64,000 nt of DNA from Lutibaculum baratangense AMV1 (GTDB lineage Bacteria; Pseudomonadota; Alphaproteobacteria; Rhizobiales; Tepidamorphaceae). Shown piece after piece: positions 9,858 to 16,095 of the stretch. The stretch covers positions 186,001 through 250,000 of the forward strand of contig NZ_AWXZ01000039.1 in NCBI RefSeq assembly GCF_000496075.1, read 5' to 3'. Both the position numbers and the translations under genes were made by a program. How positions within the stretch are numbered: the first letter of the stretch is position 1; the number at the start of each line of letters is the position of its first letter. Below the pieces are notes generated by a model. The model made no database searches and was not told where the DNA came from. It saw only the letters and a program-made list of their open reading frames with translations.

Positions 9858-11105
9858 TCAGACGATGAGGCCGTCGAGCGGTTTCAGGCCGATGCTGTCG
9901 GGGAAGATCCTCGTGGCGAGCGTGCGCTGATCGATCCCGAGGTGGTCGCGCAGGACGCCCTTCAGGACGGCGCGGAGATCGGTCGTCGGCTGCAGGTCGC
10001 GCTCCTCGTAGAGGTCCCGGGTCCGCAGGCCCGGCCAATCCGCGATCACGCGGCCTCCCTTGACGGCGCCTCCCATCAGGAAGGCGGTCGTCGCAGTGCC
10101 GTGATCGGTTCCCTTGTTGCCGTTCGCGCGCGCCGTGCGGCCGAATTCCGTGACGACGGCGACCACCGTCTGGCTCCAGACGGCGCTCAATTGCCCCGCC
10201 AAGGCGTCGAGCGAGGAGTCGAGAGCGTCGAGAAGCACGGCCAGACGGCCGTCCGCCGCGCCCTCTGCGGCGTGGGTATCCCACCCGTCGTAGCTGATCG
10301 CCGCCAGTCGCGGCCCGTCGTCCTCCGCGATGAGCCGGCCGGATCCCTCCGCCAGCGCGATGAAGGAGGAGGCGAGCCCGTTGCGTCGCTTCTCCCCGGC
10401 ATCATCCATCGGCACGCCCATGGCCAACTCGTCGAGCTCGACCCCCGCCGTGAATACGCGGGACAGTTCGGCATCCGTCTCGCCGTAGAGCGATGCCAGG
10501 CGCTGCACGGTATCGGACCCGGCCTGCTTCATCGAAGGGGGGCTCCAGGTGAGCACCGGGGCGTCGCCGCGCAGGATGAGCGGCACCGTGGCGCCGACGG
10601 CGAGGCCCTGCGTCGGCCTGGCCCGATCTCCCGCAGGCAATGCCGCAGCCACGCGGTTCAGCCACCCGTCCTGGCTGCCGCGCGGGCCGACGAGGCCGCT
10701 TTCGAGCACGTCCTGACCGTCGAAGTGGGACCGCTCGCGGTAGGGCGTCGCCGCCGCGTGGACGATCAGGGCCTCGCCCTTGCGCATGCGCCGATGGAGC
10801 TTCGGCATGGCGTCGTTCAGGGCGAACAGATCGTCGAGGGGCAGGATCTCGCTGCCGTCGGCGCCGAGGGCGAGGTCGCCGCGCAGCGCCGCATAGTCGC
10901 GGTCGCCGACCGGGGGCACGGCCGCCAGCCCGTCCATCGCACCCCTCAGGATCACGAGGACAAAGCGCGGATCCGCCGTGCCGGCGAAGCCTGCACGGGG
11001 CATGTTGGCCCAGGCCACCAGGGAGCCGGCGCCCGCCAGGAAGGCACGGCGGCTGGGGCAGAGGCGAGCGTCCTGTGCGAGGAATGAGGGAACAGACATC
11101 GGCAT
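9858..11105 (-). CDS. DUF1501 domain-containing secreted protein
   Basis: A 415-residue protein with a Tat-type signal (SRRAFLAGAGSLV at about residues 18-30) and the alkaline-phosphatase-superfamily-like DUF1501 domain (VLVILRGAMDGLA, later VVTEFGRTARANGNKGTDHG). Function unproven. DUF1501 proteins are almost always encoded beside DUF1800 proteins, as here, and are exported folded. The start at 11105 overlaps the DUF1800 stop in TGATG, so translation is coupled. Stretches such as FGRTARANGNKGTDHG resemble metal-binding motifs of sulfatase-like enzymes, but catalysis is not shown. Confidence 0.88.
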   Translation of the reverse strand: MPMSVPSFLAQDARLCPSRRAFLAGAGSLVAWANMPRAGFAGTADPRFVLVILRGAMDGLAAVPPVGDRDYAALRGDLALGADGSEILPLDDLFALNDAMPKLHRRMRKGEALIVHAAATPYRERSHFDGQDVLESGLVGPRGSQDGWLNRVAAALPAGDRARPTQGLAVGATVPLILRGDAPVLTWSPPSMKQAGSDTVQRLASLYGETDAELSRVFTAGVELDELAMGVPMDDAGEKRRNGLASSFIALAEGSGRLIAEDDGPRLAAISYDGWDTHAAEGAADGRLAVLLDALDSSLDALAGQLSAVWSQTVVAVVTEFGRTARANGNKGTDHGTATTAFLMGGAVKGGRVIADWPGLRTRDLYEERDLQPTTDLRAVLKGVLRDHLGIDQRTLATRIFPDSIGLKPLDGLIV

Positions 11106-12445
11106 CACCTGCGCTGGAATTCCGGGCTCATGAGAAGTAGTGCGAGACCCTGCTCGGTCGTCTCCGCGCGTGAGATGCTCTGGGATGTCGCCATCGACAT
11201 CGAAGCGCCCAGCACCTCCTCCGCCACCCCGCGGGGATCGAGCGCACGGCTTCTGCCCGCGATCGCCTGCGCGATGTCGAGGCGCGTGGTCAGGGCGTCG
11301 GGAGCGAGCCATTCGGCGCTGTCATCGGGGAAGCCGGCGGGCGAGGGCGGGTTCCACAGCGGTTGGCCGAGGAGGTTCAGCACACGCTGGCAGAACGGGG
11401 CGGGGGCGTTGAAATCGACAGCGCGAATGGTCGCCCACAGGAACTCCTGAGGGGGGCGCAATTTGCTCGGCGGAAGGTCCCAGGCCTCGTCGGAGTGAAG
11501 CAGCGTCGCGTAGACGCTGCGCAAATCGCCGTCGCTGTCGAGAAAGCTGTCGGTCAGCGCCTCGACCAGCCGTGGCGGAGGCGCGTCGGAGACGAAATGC
11601 CGGGCGAGCTTGGTGGCGACGTGGCGCGCGGTCGCGGGCTGGCGGGCGAGATCCCTCAGAGCCGCCACGCCTTGTTCCTCGCCGTCGTCGGGATATCGCG
11701 TGCCCATGAGCACCTGGGGCCCCGGCTCGTGCGTGGGTGCCTTGAAGGTGAACCGGCCGAAGCGCTCCGGATACTTCGCATCCGCCCCGAGCGACCAGCC
11801 CGTGAGGATCTTCGCCAGCGCGATCACGTCGTCCTGGGTGTATCCGCCCGTCACTCCCACGGTGTGAAGCTCGAGGATCTCGCGGGCGTGGTTCTCGTTC
11901 AGCCCGCGCCCGCGCCGGACCCCGAGCCGGCTGTTCGGGCCGACCGAGGTGATGTTGTTGAGGTAGTAGAGCATGGCCGGATGGCGCGTCGCGGCGAGCA
12001 GCAGGTCGTCGAAGTGACCGAGCACGTGCGGCCTGATCGCCTCGCGCTCGTAGGCGCCGGCCATGCCGCGCCGGGCGCCCCCGCGGAGGTCGACGGCGAA
12101 ATGGTTCGTCCAGAACCCGACGATCCGCTCCACGAAGCCGGTGTCCACGCGGCGGATCCGCCGGACACGGGCCTCGACCTCGTCGAAATAGATCGCTCTG
12201 GCGACGTTCTTCGGCGCGCCCTCCGGTGGTTCCTTGCCCTCCTTGCGCCGCCGCGCCTCCTCGCGCACCGCGAGCCAGGCCTCCCGGCTGTCCAAAAGGC
12301 TCGGATCGTTCATGAGCGCCGCGCGCGGACGGTCGATTTCGGCGAGCAGGAGCGTTCGAACGTCGCCTTGCCCTCTCGTCTCCGCGTTCCCCCTCATGCC
12401 GAGACCGAACCGCGCCAGGGCGCGTGATGCATCACTTGGAGCCAT
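11105..12445 (-). CDS. DUF1800 domain-containing protein
   Basis: A 446-residue DUF1800 protein, partner of the DUF1501 protein downstream. Family landmarks are FWTNHFAVD, LNENHAREILELHTVGVTGG and FVSDAPPPRLVE. The Met at 12445 is chosen over 12559 because an AGGTGG ribosome-binding site precedes it and the longer N-terminus is arginine-rich and unlike the family. No signal peptide is obvious; DUF1800 proteins may travel with their Tat-exported partner. The biochemical role of the pair is unknown; roles in extracellular polymer or cell-surface processes have been proposed for relatives. Confidence 0.87.
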   Translation of the reverse strand: MAPSDASRALARFGLGMRGNAETRGQGDVRTLLLAEIDRPRAALMNDPSLLDSREAWLAVREEARRRKEGKEPPEGAPKNVARAIYFDEVEARVRRIRRVDTGFVERIVGFWTNHFAVDLRGGARRGMAGAYEREAIRPHVLGHFDDLLLAATRHPAMLYYLNNITSVGPNSRLGVRRGRGLNENHAREILELHTVGVTGGYTQDDVIALAKILTGWSLGADAKYPERFGRFTFKAPTHEPGPQVLMGTRYPDDGEEQGVAALRDLARQPATARHVATKLARHFVSDAPPPRLVEALTDSFLDSDGDLRSVYATLLHSDEAWDLPPSKLRPPQEFLWATIRAVDFNAPAPFCQRVLNLLGQPLWNPPSPAGFPDDSAEWLAPDALTTRLDIAQAIAGRSRALDPRGVAEEVLGASMSMATSQSISRAETTEQGLALLLMSPEFQRR

Positions 12446-12580
12446 GCCACCTCGCTGGAACGGCGCCCGAGCGCCGAATGAAGGGAGCTTCAGGATAACG
12501 CGGAGCTCGTGGCGGAGTTGTGGCTGCACCCGTCCCAGGGCACGCGGTGACCGCGGCAAGACGCGCAGAGGTGCTGTGTT

Positions 12581-12657
12581 TGGAGGCCCGGCCCCGGGGT
12601 CGAACCGGGGCTGGCCGGCGTTGCATCGCCGTCGGGTGGCCGCTCCCCCACCGGGCC
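12581..12657 (-). tRNA. tRNA-Cys(GCA)-like gene with atypical stems
   Basis: 77 bases reading down from 12657. The 7-bp acceptor GGCCCGG/CCGGGCC is perfect, the discriminator is T (a Cys identity base) and CCA is encoded. The D arm is GGG-GAGCGGCCA-CCC, the same 3+9+3 layout as the E. coli tRNA-Cys I recall. The anticodon region GATGCAAC holds T33, GCA and A37. The T loop is TTCGACC. Odd points: the anticodon loop is 8 bases on a 4-bp stem or 6 bases on a 5-bp stem (CGGCG/CGCCG), and the T stem is 6 bp (CCCCGG/CCGGGG) instead of 5. Whether it is a working, minor or decayed tRNA-Cys is open. Confidence 0.72.
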
Positions 12658-12689
12658 GTCTACGCCACCGACGATAGCCGGCCGAGCCG

Positions 12690-12740: not shown

Positions 12741-14177
12741 TCAGCGGCGCCAGAACTCGGGATCGAGGAGAAGCAGCATCGTGAAGAGCTCCAGTCGCCC
12801 GAGGAGCATCGCAAAGGCGAGGATCCACTTGGCGGAGTCGGGCACCTCCTGGAAGTTGCCGGAGGGACCGATGATCTCGCCGAGCCCCGGGCCGACATTG
12901 CCGAGGGCCGTTGCTGCCCCGCTCAGCGCGCTGACGATGTCGAGCCCGGTAGCGGCCAGCAGTAGCGTCACGACCACGACACTGGCGAAGTACGTCGTGA
13001 GGAAGAGCAGAACCGAGGGCGGCACGTCCTCTGGAATGCGCTGCCCGGAATAGCGCAACGGGATGAGACGGTTGGGCCGGGCGAGCCGCCCGAGATGGGC
13101 CCTGAGAACGCGCCACAGGATCTGGAAGCGATAGATCTTGATCGCTCCGGTGGTGGAGCCGCTGCACCCGCCGATGAACGTCAGAAGAAAGAACAGACCG
13201 ACCGCCGCGGCGCCCCAGAGCGTATAGTCGCTGCTCGCGTAGCCCGTCGTGGTGGTGATCGAGACGACGTTGAACGCGGCCAGCCGCAAGGCCTCGAGCG
13301 GCGGCAGGTCGTGCGTTCGGACGAGCCACAACGCCAGCAGGATCGACACGACGACGATCAGTTGCAGGAAGGTGCGGATCTGCGGGTCGCGCCACAGGGA
13401 GACCTGCTCTCCCTTTACCAGCTTGATGTAGGCCACGAAGGGGAGGGCTCCCGCCAGCATGAAGATCGTGGCCGTCCAGTGCAGGAGGGGCGGCTCGAAG
13501 TGACCGAAGGAGGCGTCGTAATTGGCGAACCCGCCCGTGGAGAGGGTGGTCATCGCGTGGCAGATGGCATCGAAGAAAGACATCCCGCCGATCTTGTAGA
13601 GCGCGGCGCATGCCGCCGTCAGCGAGATGTAGGTCAAGCCGATGAACTGCACGAGCTGGACGGGTCGGGGGACGATCTTCTCGGACCGGTCGGAGCTTTC
13701 CGTGTGGAAGAGCTGCATGCCGCCGACACGCAGGAACGGCAGGACGATGATGGCCGTGACGACGATGCCGACGCCGCCGATCCATTGCAGCAGCGCACGC
13801 CAGAACAGCAGGCCCGGCGGGAGTAGCTCGAGATCCGAGAGCACGGTCGAGCCGGTGGTGGTGAAGCCCGAGACGGCTTCGAAGAACGCGTCGTGATAGT
13901 TGAGGCCGAGCCCCAGGAACGGGAGGGCGGAGAAGGCGGAGAGCGATATCCAGACCGAGGTGGTCACGATGAAGGCGGTCTGCATTCGCAGCGCGCTCTC
14001 CACCGGCCGCCTCGCAGCGAGTGCGATCAGCGTGCCGAGCGACCAGGTGACGAGCGCGCTGACGGCGAAGATCGACCAGTCCTCGTTGCCGATGACGACG
14101 TCGATCAGCGCCGGCACGAGCATGGTCACGCCCAAGCCGGCCAGCAGGAGCCCGTTGACATAGAAGATGATGGACAT
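12741..14177 (-). CDS. trkH: Trk-type potassium uptake transmembrane protein (TrkH)
   Basis: Inner-membrane K+ uptake channel subunit of 478 residues, normal for TrkH. All four selectivity-filter loops can be read: GFTTTGST, TTLSTGGF, TTTTGYASS and CSGSTTGA. It needs the cytosolic NAD-binding regulator TrkA, which is not in the window. It is preceded on the same strand by a small membrane protein gene 115 bp upstream. Confidence 0.94.
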   Translation of the reverse strand: MSIIFYVNGLLLAGLGVTMLVPALIDVVIGNEDWSIFAVSALVTWSLGTLIALAARRPVESALRMQTAFIVTTSVWISLSAFSALPFLGLGLNYHDAFFEAVSGFTTTGSTVLSDLELLPPGLLFWRALLQWIGGVGIVVTAIIVLPFLRVGGMQLFHTESSDRSEKIVPRPVQLVQFIGLTYISLTAACAALYKIGGMSFFDAICHAMTTLSTGGFANYDASFGHFEPPLLHWTATIFMLAGALPFVAYIKLVKGEQVSLWRDPQIRTFLQLIVVVSILLALWLVRTHDLPPLEALRLAAFNVVSITTTTGYASSDYTLWGAAAVGLFFLLTFIGGCSGSTTGAIKIYRFQILWRVLRAHLGRLARPNRLIPLRYSGQRIPEDVPPSVLLFLTTYFASVVVVTLLLAATGLDIVSALSGAATALGNVGPGLGEIIGPSGNFQEVPDSAKWILAFAMLLGRLELFTMLLLLDPEFWRR

Positions 14178-15511: not shown

Positions 15512-15991
15512 TCAGGCGGTCAGGCCGGCCGCCCGCGCCTCGCAGGCGCGCAGCAGGTCGGCGGGTGCGACGGCGAACACGCAATGGGGCGTGCCCGCAG
15601 CCGCCCAGACGACGGGGTGATCGAGCAGCGACCGGTCCATCAGCGTCTGCATCTGCGTCTCGTGGCCGAGCGGGGGGACACCCCCGATGGCGTATCCGGT
15701 GAGCTCGCGGACCGTCCTGCCGTCGGCCCGTCGCAGGCCCTCTCCGACCTCGCGCTCGACGGTCGGCTCGTCGACGCGGTCGGCGCCCGAGACGAGCAGC
15801 AGAAGCGGAGTCTCGCTCTCGCTTCCGACGAAGACGAGAGACTTGACGATCTGGGCGACCGAGCAGCCGCAGGCCAGGGCTGCCTCCTCGGCGGTCCGCG
15901 CAGACACGTCGTGCACCACGACCTCGATCTCCAGCCCACGCGCGAGGGCTCGGCGGCGGAAGCGTTCGGCACTGGCGGGCAATTCGGTCAT
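15512..15991 (-). CDS. YbaK/EbsC family protein (aminoacyl-tRNA deacylase-like)
   Basis: A 159-residue cytoplasmic protein of the YbaK/ProX editing family, which removes wrong amino acids from tRNA (for example Cys or Ala from tRNA-Pro). The lysine of IVKSLVF and the GYAIGGVPPLGH loop are typical. I start at 15991; the upstream Met at 16054 adds an arginine-rich leader not seen in the family. The substrate cannot be assigned. Confidence 0.87.
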   Translation of the reverse strand: MTELPASAERFRRRALARGLEIEVVVHDVSARTAEEAALACGCSVAQIVKSLVFVGSESETPLLLLVSGADRVDEPTVEREVGEGLRRADGRTVRELTGYAIGGVPPLGHETQMQTLMDRSLLDHPVVWAAAGTPHCVFAVAPADLLRACEARAAGLTA

Positions 15992-16095
15992 GCGCGGAGG
16001 GTAGTGCCGGAGCGGGCGCGACGGAAGCAGCAAGCCTCGCCGGGCGTGCGGCAAACATGGTAAACAGCGCGTTAACCAATGCGAGGTCGCCCCAC

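Follow-up and report, generated by a model that had tools for sequence, protein, structure and literature searches.

A noncanonical tRNA-Cys-like gene of Lutibaculum baratangense AMV1 and its relatives in one alphaproteobacterial order

The tRNA-Cys-like gene of Lutibaculum baratangense

We analysed a 64,000-nucleotide (nt) stretch of the genome of Lutibaculum baratangense AMV1 (contig NZ_AWXZ01000039.1, positions 186,001 to 250,000; hereafter the window), for which a preliminary description had pointed to a transfer RNA (tRNA) gene resembling tRNA-Cys, with an odd anticodon loop and a T stem of 6 base pairs (bp). A complete 77-nt cloverleaf was confirmed at 12581-12657. Our sequence comparisons place this gene in a conserved family of extra tRNA-Cys-like genes that is easily missed and occurs in one alphaproteobacterial order. 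Its parts are the following:

12581..12657, minus strand: noncanonical tRNA-Cys-like gene, 77 nt including the encoded CCA (ARAGORN, alignment, covariance models)
12581..12584, minus strand: discriminator T (U73) and encoded CCA, the same in 77/77 distinct family sequences
12592..12610, minus strand: T arm, 6-bp stem and TTCGACC loop
12616..12631, minus strand: anticodon arm, 5-bp stem CGGCG/CGCCG and 6-nt loop ATGCAA
12622..12624, minus strand: GCA in the anticodon position

The acceptor stem consists of seven perfect pairs (GGCCCGG/CCGGGCC) and is followed by a D arm GGG-GAGCGGCCA-CCC, a variable stretch of 5 nt (GCCAG) and a T arm CCCCGG-TTCGACC-CCGGGG, giving a 7/6 acceptor/T branch of 13 bp. 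The 7-bp acceptor, discriminator T, CCA, GCA and TTCGACC loop named in the preliminary description can all be read on the minus strand. The anticodon arm, CGGCG-ATGCAA-CGCCG, forms 5 bp with a 6-nt loop or, in an alternative drawing, 4 bp with an 8-nt loop; the next pair outward is an A.G mismatch, at a place where most relatives form a sixth pair. Cysteine determinants described for bacteria are U73, G2-C71, C3-G70 and GCA, with U73 alone conferring cysteine identity on minihelices (PMC9976931), and all four are present in the window copy.

The same genome contains a normal 74-nt tRNA-Cys gene (C38:569319-569392, beside tRNA-Asn), for which a search had been suggested at the outset. The two genes are similar over their full length, and canonical tRNA-Cys shares with the window copy the acceptor end, U73, CCA, GCA, the D-arm length and the T loop. 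However, the canonical arm has a 5-bp stem and a 7-nt loop, whereas the window gene has a loop shorter by 1 nt, one additional nucleotide before the anticodon stem, another in the variable region, and one additional pair that makes the T stem 6 bp. The differences between the two genes in the acceptor and D stems preserve pairing.

ARAGORN reported 12581-12657 as the only tRNA of the window, with type 'tRNA-???' and a two-base anticodon. The Rfam tRNA model (RF00005) did not report it, even at E<=5 in a 401-base stretch, and a genome-wide search with that model at E<=10 returned 52 places that do not include it. At its gathering score, the model recovered 0/9 and 0/7 family loci in two test sets.

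We also compared the gene with chance expectation. Order-3 Markov sequence modelled on the window produced 180 ARAGORN calls in 200 Mb (17 of type '???'), only one of which ended in TCCA, a false tRNA-Val that was not Cys-like; a smaller, 20-Mb simulation gave 26 calls. The alignment score of the window gene against the genome's own tRNA-Cys was 66, as compared with 32.5 for the next best among 30 genome tRNAs (those in the fetched loci, part of the full set) and with a maximum of 44.5 among 5000 shuffles that kept the TCCA. With R3, a covariance model from which the window copy was left out, the window locus was the one place in the 64 kb to match at E<=1 (70.2 bits, E 1.9e-16); four normal tRNA-Cys genes obtained 68.7-73.4 bits, like the window copy, so R3 demonstrates kinship with tRNA-Cys and not, by itself, membership of the family. 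Folding energy is uninformative alone at the 82% GC content of this gene (z -0.37; 63/200 shuffles fold equally well). Apart from the folding energy and the Rfam searches, which speak the other way, these results make a chance origin of the cloverleaf unlikely.

Relatives in the order and their shared shape

At E<=0.01, a covariance model from the window candidate alone (R1) had matches in 71 of the order's 397 genomes, normal 74-nt genes included; its best matches were of 75-78 nt, and ARAGORN assigned type '???' to 16 of the 17 noncanonical loci examined. A second model, from 18 members (R2), identified at least 43 noncanonical loci in at least 42/397 genomes, with 72-91 bits, above the scores of most canonical genes; these counts cover matches down to E ~5e-13 and are hence lower bounds. 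Among the R2 matches listed, carriers comprise all genomes of genus groups g40 (14/14), g39 (13/13), g121 (4/4) and g68 (2/2), 4/5 of g33, 1/8 of g86, and single genomes of g1, g77 (with two copies), g108 and g138. In family f35, 57/139 genomes had matches of lengths other than 74 nt, and the sequences of 44 of these were read; 61 genomes matched in all, and four with only 74-nt rows were left out of the count. In family f34, 16/18 genomes matched at E<=1e-13, and a seventeenth (G268), which narrowly missed, matched in the order-wide R2 search.

R1 gave no match at E<=0.01 in the seven other genomes of the window's own family, R2 rows of these genomes were not among the matches listed, and the relatives found include no second genome of its genus. 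In a class-wide sample of 385 genomes, some 380 of them from other orders, no family copy appeared among the matches listed for the other orders; these, judged by length only, measured 74 or 75 nt, as expected of normal tRNA-Cys. R1 recovers 37/42 known carriers at E<=0.01 and 34/42 at the 1e-5 used class-wide, so the absence outside the order is not firm.

In a maximum-likelihood tree of 51 sequences, 12 canonical genes and a g66 variant separated from all 38 family sequences, the window copy standing on the family side (SH-aLRT, an approximate likelihood-ratio test, 99.6; bootstrap 99; the sequences are short). With the family, the window copy has in common the acceptor GRCC/GGYC-UCCA, a covarying cloverleaf and a loop closed to 6 nt. 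Left out of the family as canonical-like were the 76-nt copies of g66 (L085-L088, L121), copies of g99 (e.g. L098, L122), L090 and the 74-nt rows. The first proposal of a minor tRNA-Cys or tRNA-like RNA is supported by what was found, a normal gene elsewhere in the genome and a conserved second family.

The g66 variant (L085-L088, L121) is a 76-nt tRNA-Cys with G33 and a 6-bp T stem that groups with canonical genes and, in the two genomes checked for this (G074, G209), coexists with a normal tRNA-Cys; in G209 there is a second copy of it, with a shortened acceptor (L121).

The shape of the family was examined in 38 distinct sequences, in which 99.5% of pair cells were standard, as compared with at most 58.6% in slid controls; this alignment was fitted to the tested structure, which favours that structure. 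Both-sided change occurred in 14/21 pairs, with support for all four arms, and RNAalifold recovered from the same alignment the identical four arms plus one further outer anticodon pair. The pair that closes the loop (columns 35-43) was formed in 36/38 sequences, 15 of them through both-sided change, and occurs as G-C, C-G, A-U, U-A and G-U; in the other two it is A.C, and the loop would be open there. With this pair formed, the usual arm is a 6-bp stem with a 6-nt loop, and the A.G mismatch at the outer pair leaves 5 bp in the window copy. By contrast, a 6-bp T stem was present in 13/38 distinct sequences and, on this alignment, the resulting 13-bp helix is not a hallmark of the family.

Frameshift-suppressor tRNAs have 8-nt anticodon loops, a shape that the preliminary description had also seen here. 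Yeast mitochondrial tRNA-Thr1 likewise carries an 8-nt loop (PMC4267643). The family arm can be drawn with 8 nt, as was claimed, but covarying pairing between the outermost loop bases reduces it to 6 nt; the smaller of the two loops originally proposed is therefore the better description, and the comparison with frameshift suppressors is weakened.

Within genera, the tRNA is better conserved than its surroundings. In g40 (n=14), mean identity was 0.92 over the tRNA but 0.67 and 0.71 over the 80 nt on its two sides; the corresponding values in g39 (n=13) were 0.90, 0.63 and 0.69. Identity in the tRNA exceeded that of both flanks in 88/91 genome pairs of g40, 78/78 of g39, 6/6 of g33 and 5/6 of g121, although in g121 the stretch 81-160 nt upstream was equally conserved (0.84 vs 0.81 in the tRNA). 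This pattern points to purifying selection on the tRNA within genera.

Charging, decoding and possible roles

Feature counts refer to 77 distinct sequences from 83 loci. U73, CCA, G1:C72 and C3:G70 were found in 77/77; the models used to gather the members include the acceptor end, which biases this count toward invariance. GCA occurs in 64/77, that is, in 64 of the 66 sequences outside g39 and in none of the 11 distinct g39 sequences; G880 was not resolved by the script. Among the 64 GCA-bearing sequences, position 33 is T in 45, C in 12, A in five and G in two and, outside g39, U33 is more variable than GCA. A 6-nt anticodon loop was counted in 62/77 and the D-loop GG is gone from 39/77, whereas the same script, run on eight of the 12 distinct canonical sequences, returned U33, a 7-nt loop and GG in all eight. 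Selection thus seems to hold the marks of charging more firmly than those of decoding, with g39 as the exception for GCA.

Several known tRNAs are comparable in part. Nearest in kind among the literature compared are the extra tRNA-Cys genes of mycobacteria, expressed with 4-bp anticodon stems (PMC6582537): as here, a second gene with an altered anticodon arm stands beside a normal one, although in another phylum and with the stem shortened, whereas here it is lengthened around a 6-nt loop. In Staphylococcus aureus, a non-proteinogenic tRNA-Gly, in which GG18-19 is replaced, is thought to escape translation (PMC4052509). It too is an extra isoacceptor beside normal genes and its GG replacement parallels the absence of GG in 39/77 family sequences; it differs in carrying glycine and in having a known acceptor pathway, the cell wall, and no rebuilt anticodon arm is mentioned for it. 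The window copy itself, unlike that tRNA-Gly, has the GG.

The preliminary description had also likened the 13-bp acceptor/T helix to unusual minor Cys and Sec-type (selenocysteine) tRNAs. The helix is present in the window, but the likeness fails. The selC* tRNA-Cys of anaerobic bacteria, reported by Mukai 2017, is described with an 8/4 branch, a 51a bulge and a long variable arm, and with a second selB (two subgroups) or a second cysS (one subgroup) downstream (PMC7609411). Common to both are U73, GCA, an unusual acceptor/T branch and the status of an extra tRNA-Cys, whereas the window copy has a 7/6 branch, no 51a bulge and a 5-nt variable stretch. A full-length second cysS was absent from 42/42 carriers, and selB is not among the five neighbours in the window, no genome-wide SelB search having been made. 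tRNA-Sec, which needs UCA and a long variable arm, is excluded by the GCA and the 5-nt variable stretch, and an allo-tRNA, which needs a 12-bp 8/4 or 9/3 branch and a long variable arm (PMC7609411), by the 13-bp 7/6 branch and, again, the 5-nt variable stretch. None of the papers listed by our literature searches described the family; an earlier mention in Mukai 2017 or its supplement is possible, and at least one large tRNA survey drops undetermined types (PMC13092985).

A normal tRNA-Cys was detected in 17 of the 18 carriers searched (the miss, G094, is a genome 84% complete) and in both g66 genomes searched alongside. Exactly one cysteinyl-tRNA synthetase (CysRS) scored above the cut-off in each of 42/42 carriers, and the idea of a dedicated second CysRS was rejected on this count; in both G234 and G362 one further, partial hit reached 41.8 bits, far under the cut-off. 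Charging, if any, therefore falls to the housekeeping enzyme.

The firmer retention of charging marks, together with a loss of GG like that of the S. aureus tRNA-Gly, leads us to infer a charged tRNA withdrawn from ordinary decoding. We would give about an even chance to a second tRNA-Cys that diverged from the housekeeping gene and is charged but largely withdrawn from ordinary decoding, and family members may thus carry cysteine without normal codon reading. On this reading the gene would have a promoter of its own, and the processed RNA would receive cysteine from the one housekeeping CysRS, which would recognise U73, C3:G70 and, in most cases, GCA; in g39, with GCA replaced, charging would rest on the acceptor end alone. 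With the loop closed down, U33 not strictly kept and GG lost in half of the sequences, UGY codons would be decoded poorly or not at all, diverting a pool of Cys-tRNA from the ribosome toward a non-ribosomal acceptor or cysteine sensing. A more specific version is tentative and on balance doubtful: a dedicated non-decoding Cys-tRNA, accompanied in some genera by a linked tRNA-Gly whose loop also has 6 nt, would supply cysteine to an as yet undiscovered reaction of the order that depends on tRNA but bypasses the ribosome.

Several observations weigh against such a charged, non-decoding tRNA. The window copy retains both U33 and the D-loop GG, and U33 is kept in 45/64 GCA-bearing sequences, so decoding is not excluded for those. 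G2:C71 is present in 61/77 sequences (A-U in eight, G-U in eight), and GCA is lost in G311 as well as in g39. There is no dedicated CysRS, and no acceptor enzyme was seen, no search having been aimed at one. Housekeeping genes surround the family members, and which ones varies with the lineage; at the window copy, a sigma-70 scan gave no promoter and no terminator was detected. The fitting of the 38-sequence alignment and the bias toward acceptor invariance count on the same side.

A working tRNA-Cys whose odd loop still reads UGY or slippery sites, as a decoding, recoding or frameshifting tRNA, is in our view unlikely. The frequency of GCA and U33 suits it, as do a few f35 copies with 7-nt loops and several that ARAGORN types as tRNA-Cys; bacterial tRNAs often have unusual anticodon arms, a tRNA-Trp with a 4-bp stem reads UGA (PMC13092985), and the mycobacterial genes with 4-bp stems are expressed (PMC6582537). 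However, the pair behind the shortened loop is itself maintained by compensatory change, GCA is kept more constantly than U33 in sequences from outside g39, the g39 loop is GGGAAC in all 13 genomes, and a normal tRNA-Cys is at hand in 17/18 carriers searched. Loop sequences, fixed or near-fixed within g39 (GGGAAC) and g40 (a TGCA core) yet different between the two, would fit a tRNA-like RNA that stays uncharged and acts as a regulator or decoy, binding a partner through its 6-nt hairpin loop, as would the loss of GG in 39/77. We rate such an RNA as rather improbable, since universal U73, CCA and C3:G70 are hard to explain without aminoacylation and the T arm and cloverleaf are retained.

A chance cloverleaf, or a decaying tRNA-Cys as raised in the preliminary description, appears very improbable for the window copy. 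Its GC content, its absence from Rfam reports, its folding energy and the lack of relatives in its genus and, by R1, in its family would agree with this; against it, all stems are intact, with conserved relatives of 75-78 nt in at least 42/397 genomes, the differences from the normal gene preserve pairing, R3 singles out the locus, and the copy groups with a conserved family in the tree.

For the charged, non-decoding tRNA, the consequence would be that an unknown use of Cys-tRNA exists in this order. In any case, a tRNA gene that many genera have kept, and whose four stems all show compensatory change, has lain under the detection line of a standard tRNA covariance model. As charging features are apparently kept while decoding features are loosened, the family also offers a natural experiment for separating the tRNA-Cys features of charging from those of decoding.

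Gene neighbourhood and further observations

The features flanking the window gene are listed below.

12671..12676, minus strand: possible -10 box TATCGT, 13 nt upstream of the mature 5' end (family-wide enrichment)
12741..14177, minus strand: TrkH-type cation transporter, upstream neighbour
11105..12559, minus strand: DUF1800 protein, downstream neighbour; in our judgement its true start is probably near 12445

Across 42 loci, the mean best score of -10-like hexamers was 7.79, as compared with 5.84 in controls (standard deviation 1.47), and the hexamers start 9-23 nt upstream, mostly 12-15. Terminator-like hairpins were found downstream of 5/13 g39 loci (0/260 control stretches) and of 0/30 other loci (3/600 control stretches).

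Five neighbours in the window have Pfam-type names: DUF1501, DUF1800, TrkH, SLT and tRNA_edit. The DUF1800 and then the DUF1501 gene lie directly 3' of the tRNA on the minus strand (9858-12559), and one named relative of the DUF1800 protein is from Methylobrevis; with the general gene content, this suggests, as a guess, that the order is Hyphomicrobiales. A gene for a tRNA_edit (YbaK/ProX-type) protein is located at 15512-16054, 2.9 kb from the tRNA. Ten TrkH loci in six of the seven other genomes of the family lack both DUF1800 and the tRNA nearby (ARAGORN, ~1.5 kb); the seventh genome gave no TrkH match. A mobile-element origin was rejected: phages and plasmids give no more than weak partial matches to the window copy, two relatives searched in plasmids had no match at E<=0.01, and one pattern run on viral contigs, which fits g39/g40-like copies and not the window copy, had none.

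Elsewhere, neighbours were named by Pfam on one representative per gene and the others by likeness. In L114-L117, loci of g40 and g108 that were read with wide flanks, the tRNA comes after Dps-like and methyltransferase genes and before a carB-like gene; in L114 and L115 the stretch read also takes in carA. All four g432 loci (L247, L248, L249, L251) have the order carA, Dps-like, tRNA, carB, with a methyltransferase gene called in two of them. This carB-linked interval, common to g40, g108 and g432, is on gene order a case of positional orthology inside f35, and the location moves between families: the tRNA follows carB-greA in g121 (4/4), gyrA in g39 (3/3) and an aminotransferase gene in g33 (2/2), and lies near lepA in g68. 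The S-adenosylmethionine (SAM) methyltransferase gene of f35 stands directly upstream of, and in line with, the noncanonical tRNA (L247:7325-8065; equivalents in L114-L117 and L251).

Some f35 genomes have multiple, differing noncanonical copies: three in G890 (L223, L224, L225), two in G850 (L219, L220) and two each in G853 and G902 (L230-L233). Just 3' of the noncanonical tRNA in L223 and L229, the sequence resembles by eye the start of a tRNA-Ser; ARAGORN lists none in L253, which covers the L223 copy.

In four f35 genomes the noncanonical tRNA-Cys is accompanied, at a distance of no more than ~1 kb, by a tRNA-Gly-like gene whose loop has 6 nt (L247:6401-6473, L249:6953-7024, L251:5352-5424, L252:6034-6104), and in a fifth (G887; cf. 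L248:6834-6907) the tRNA-Gly-like gene has a 7-nt loop. Those of L247, L249 and L252 pass Rfam's tRNA threshold. This neighbour could be a second remodelled tRNA.
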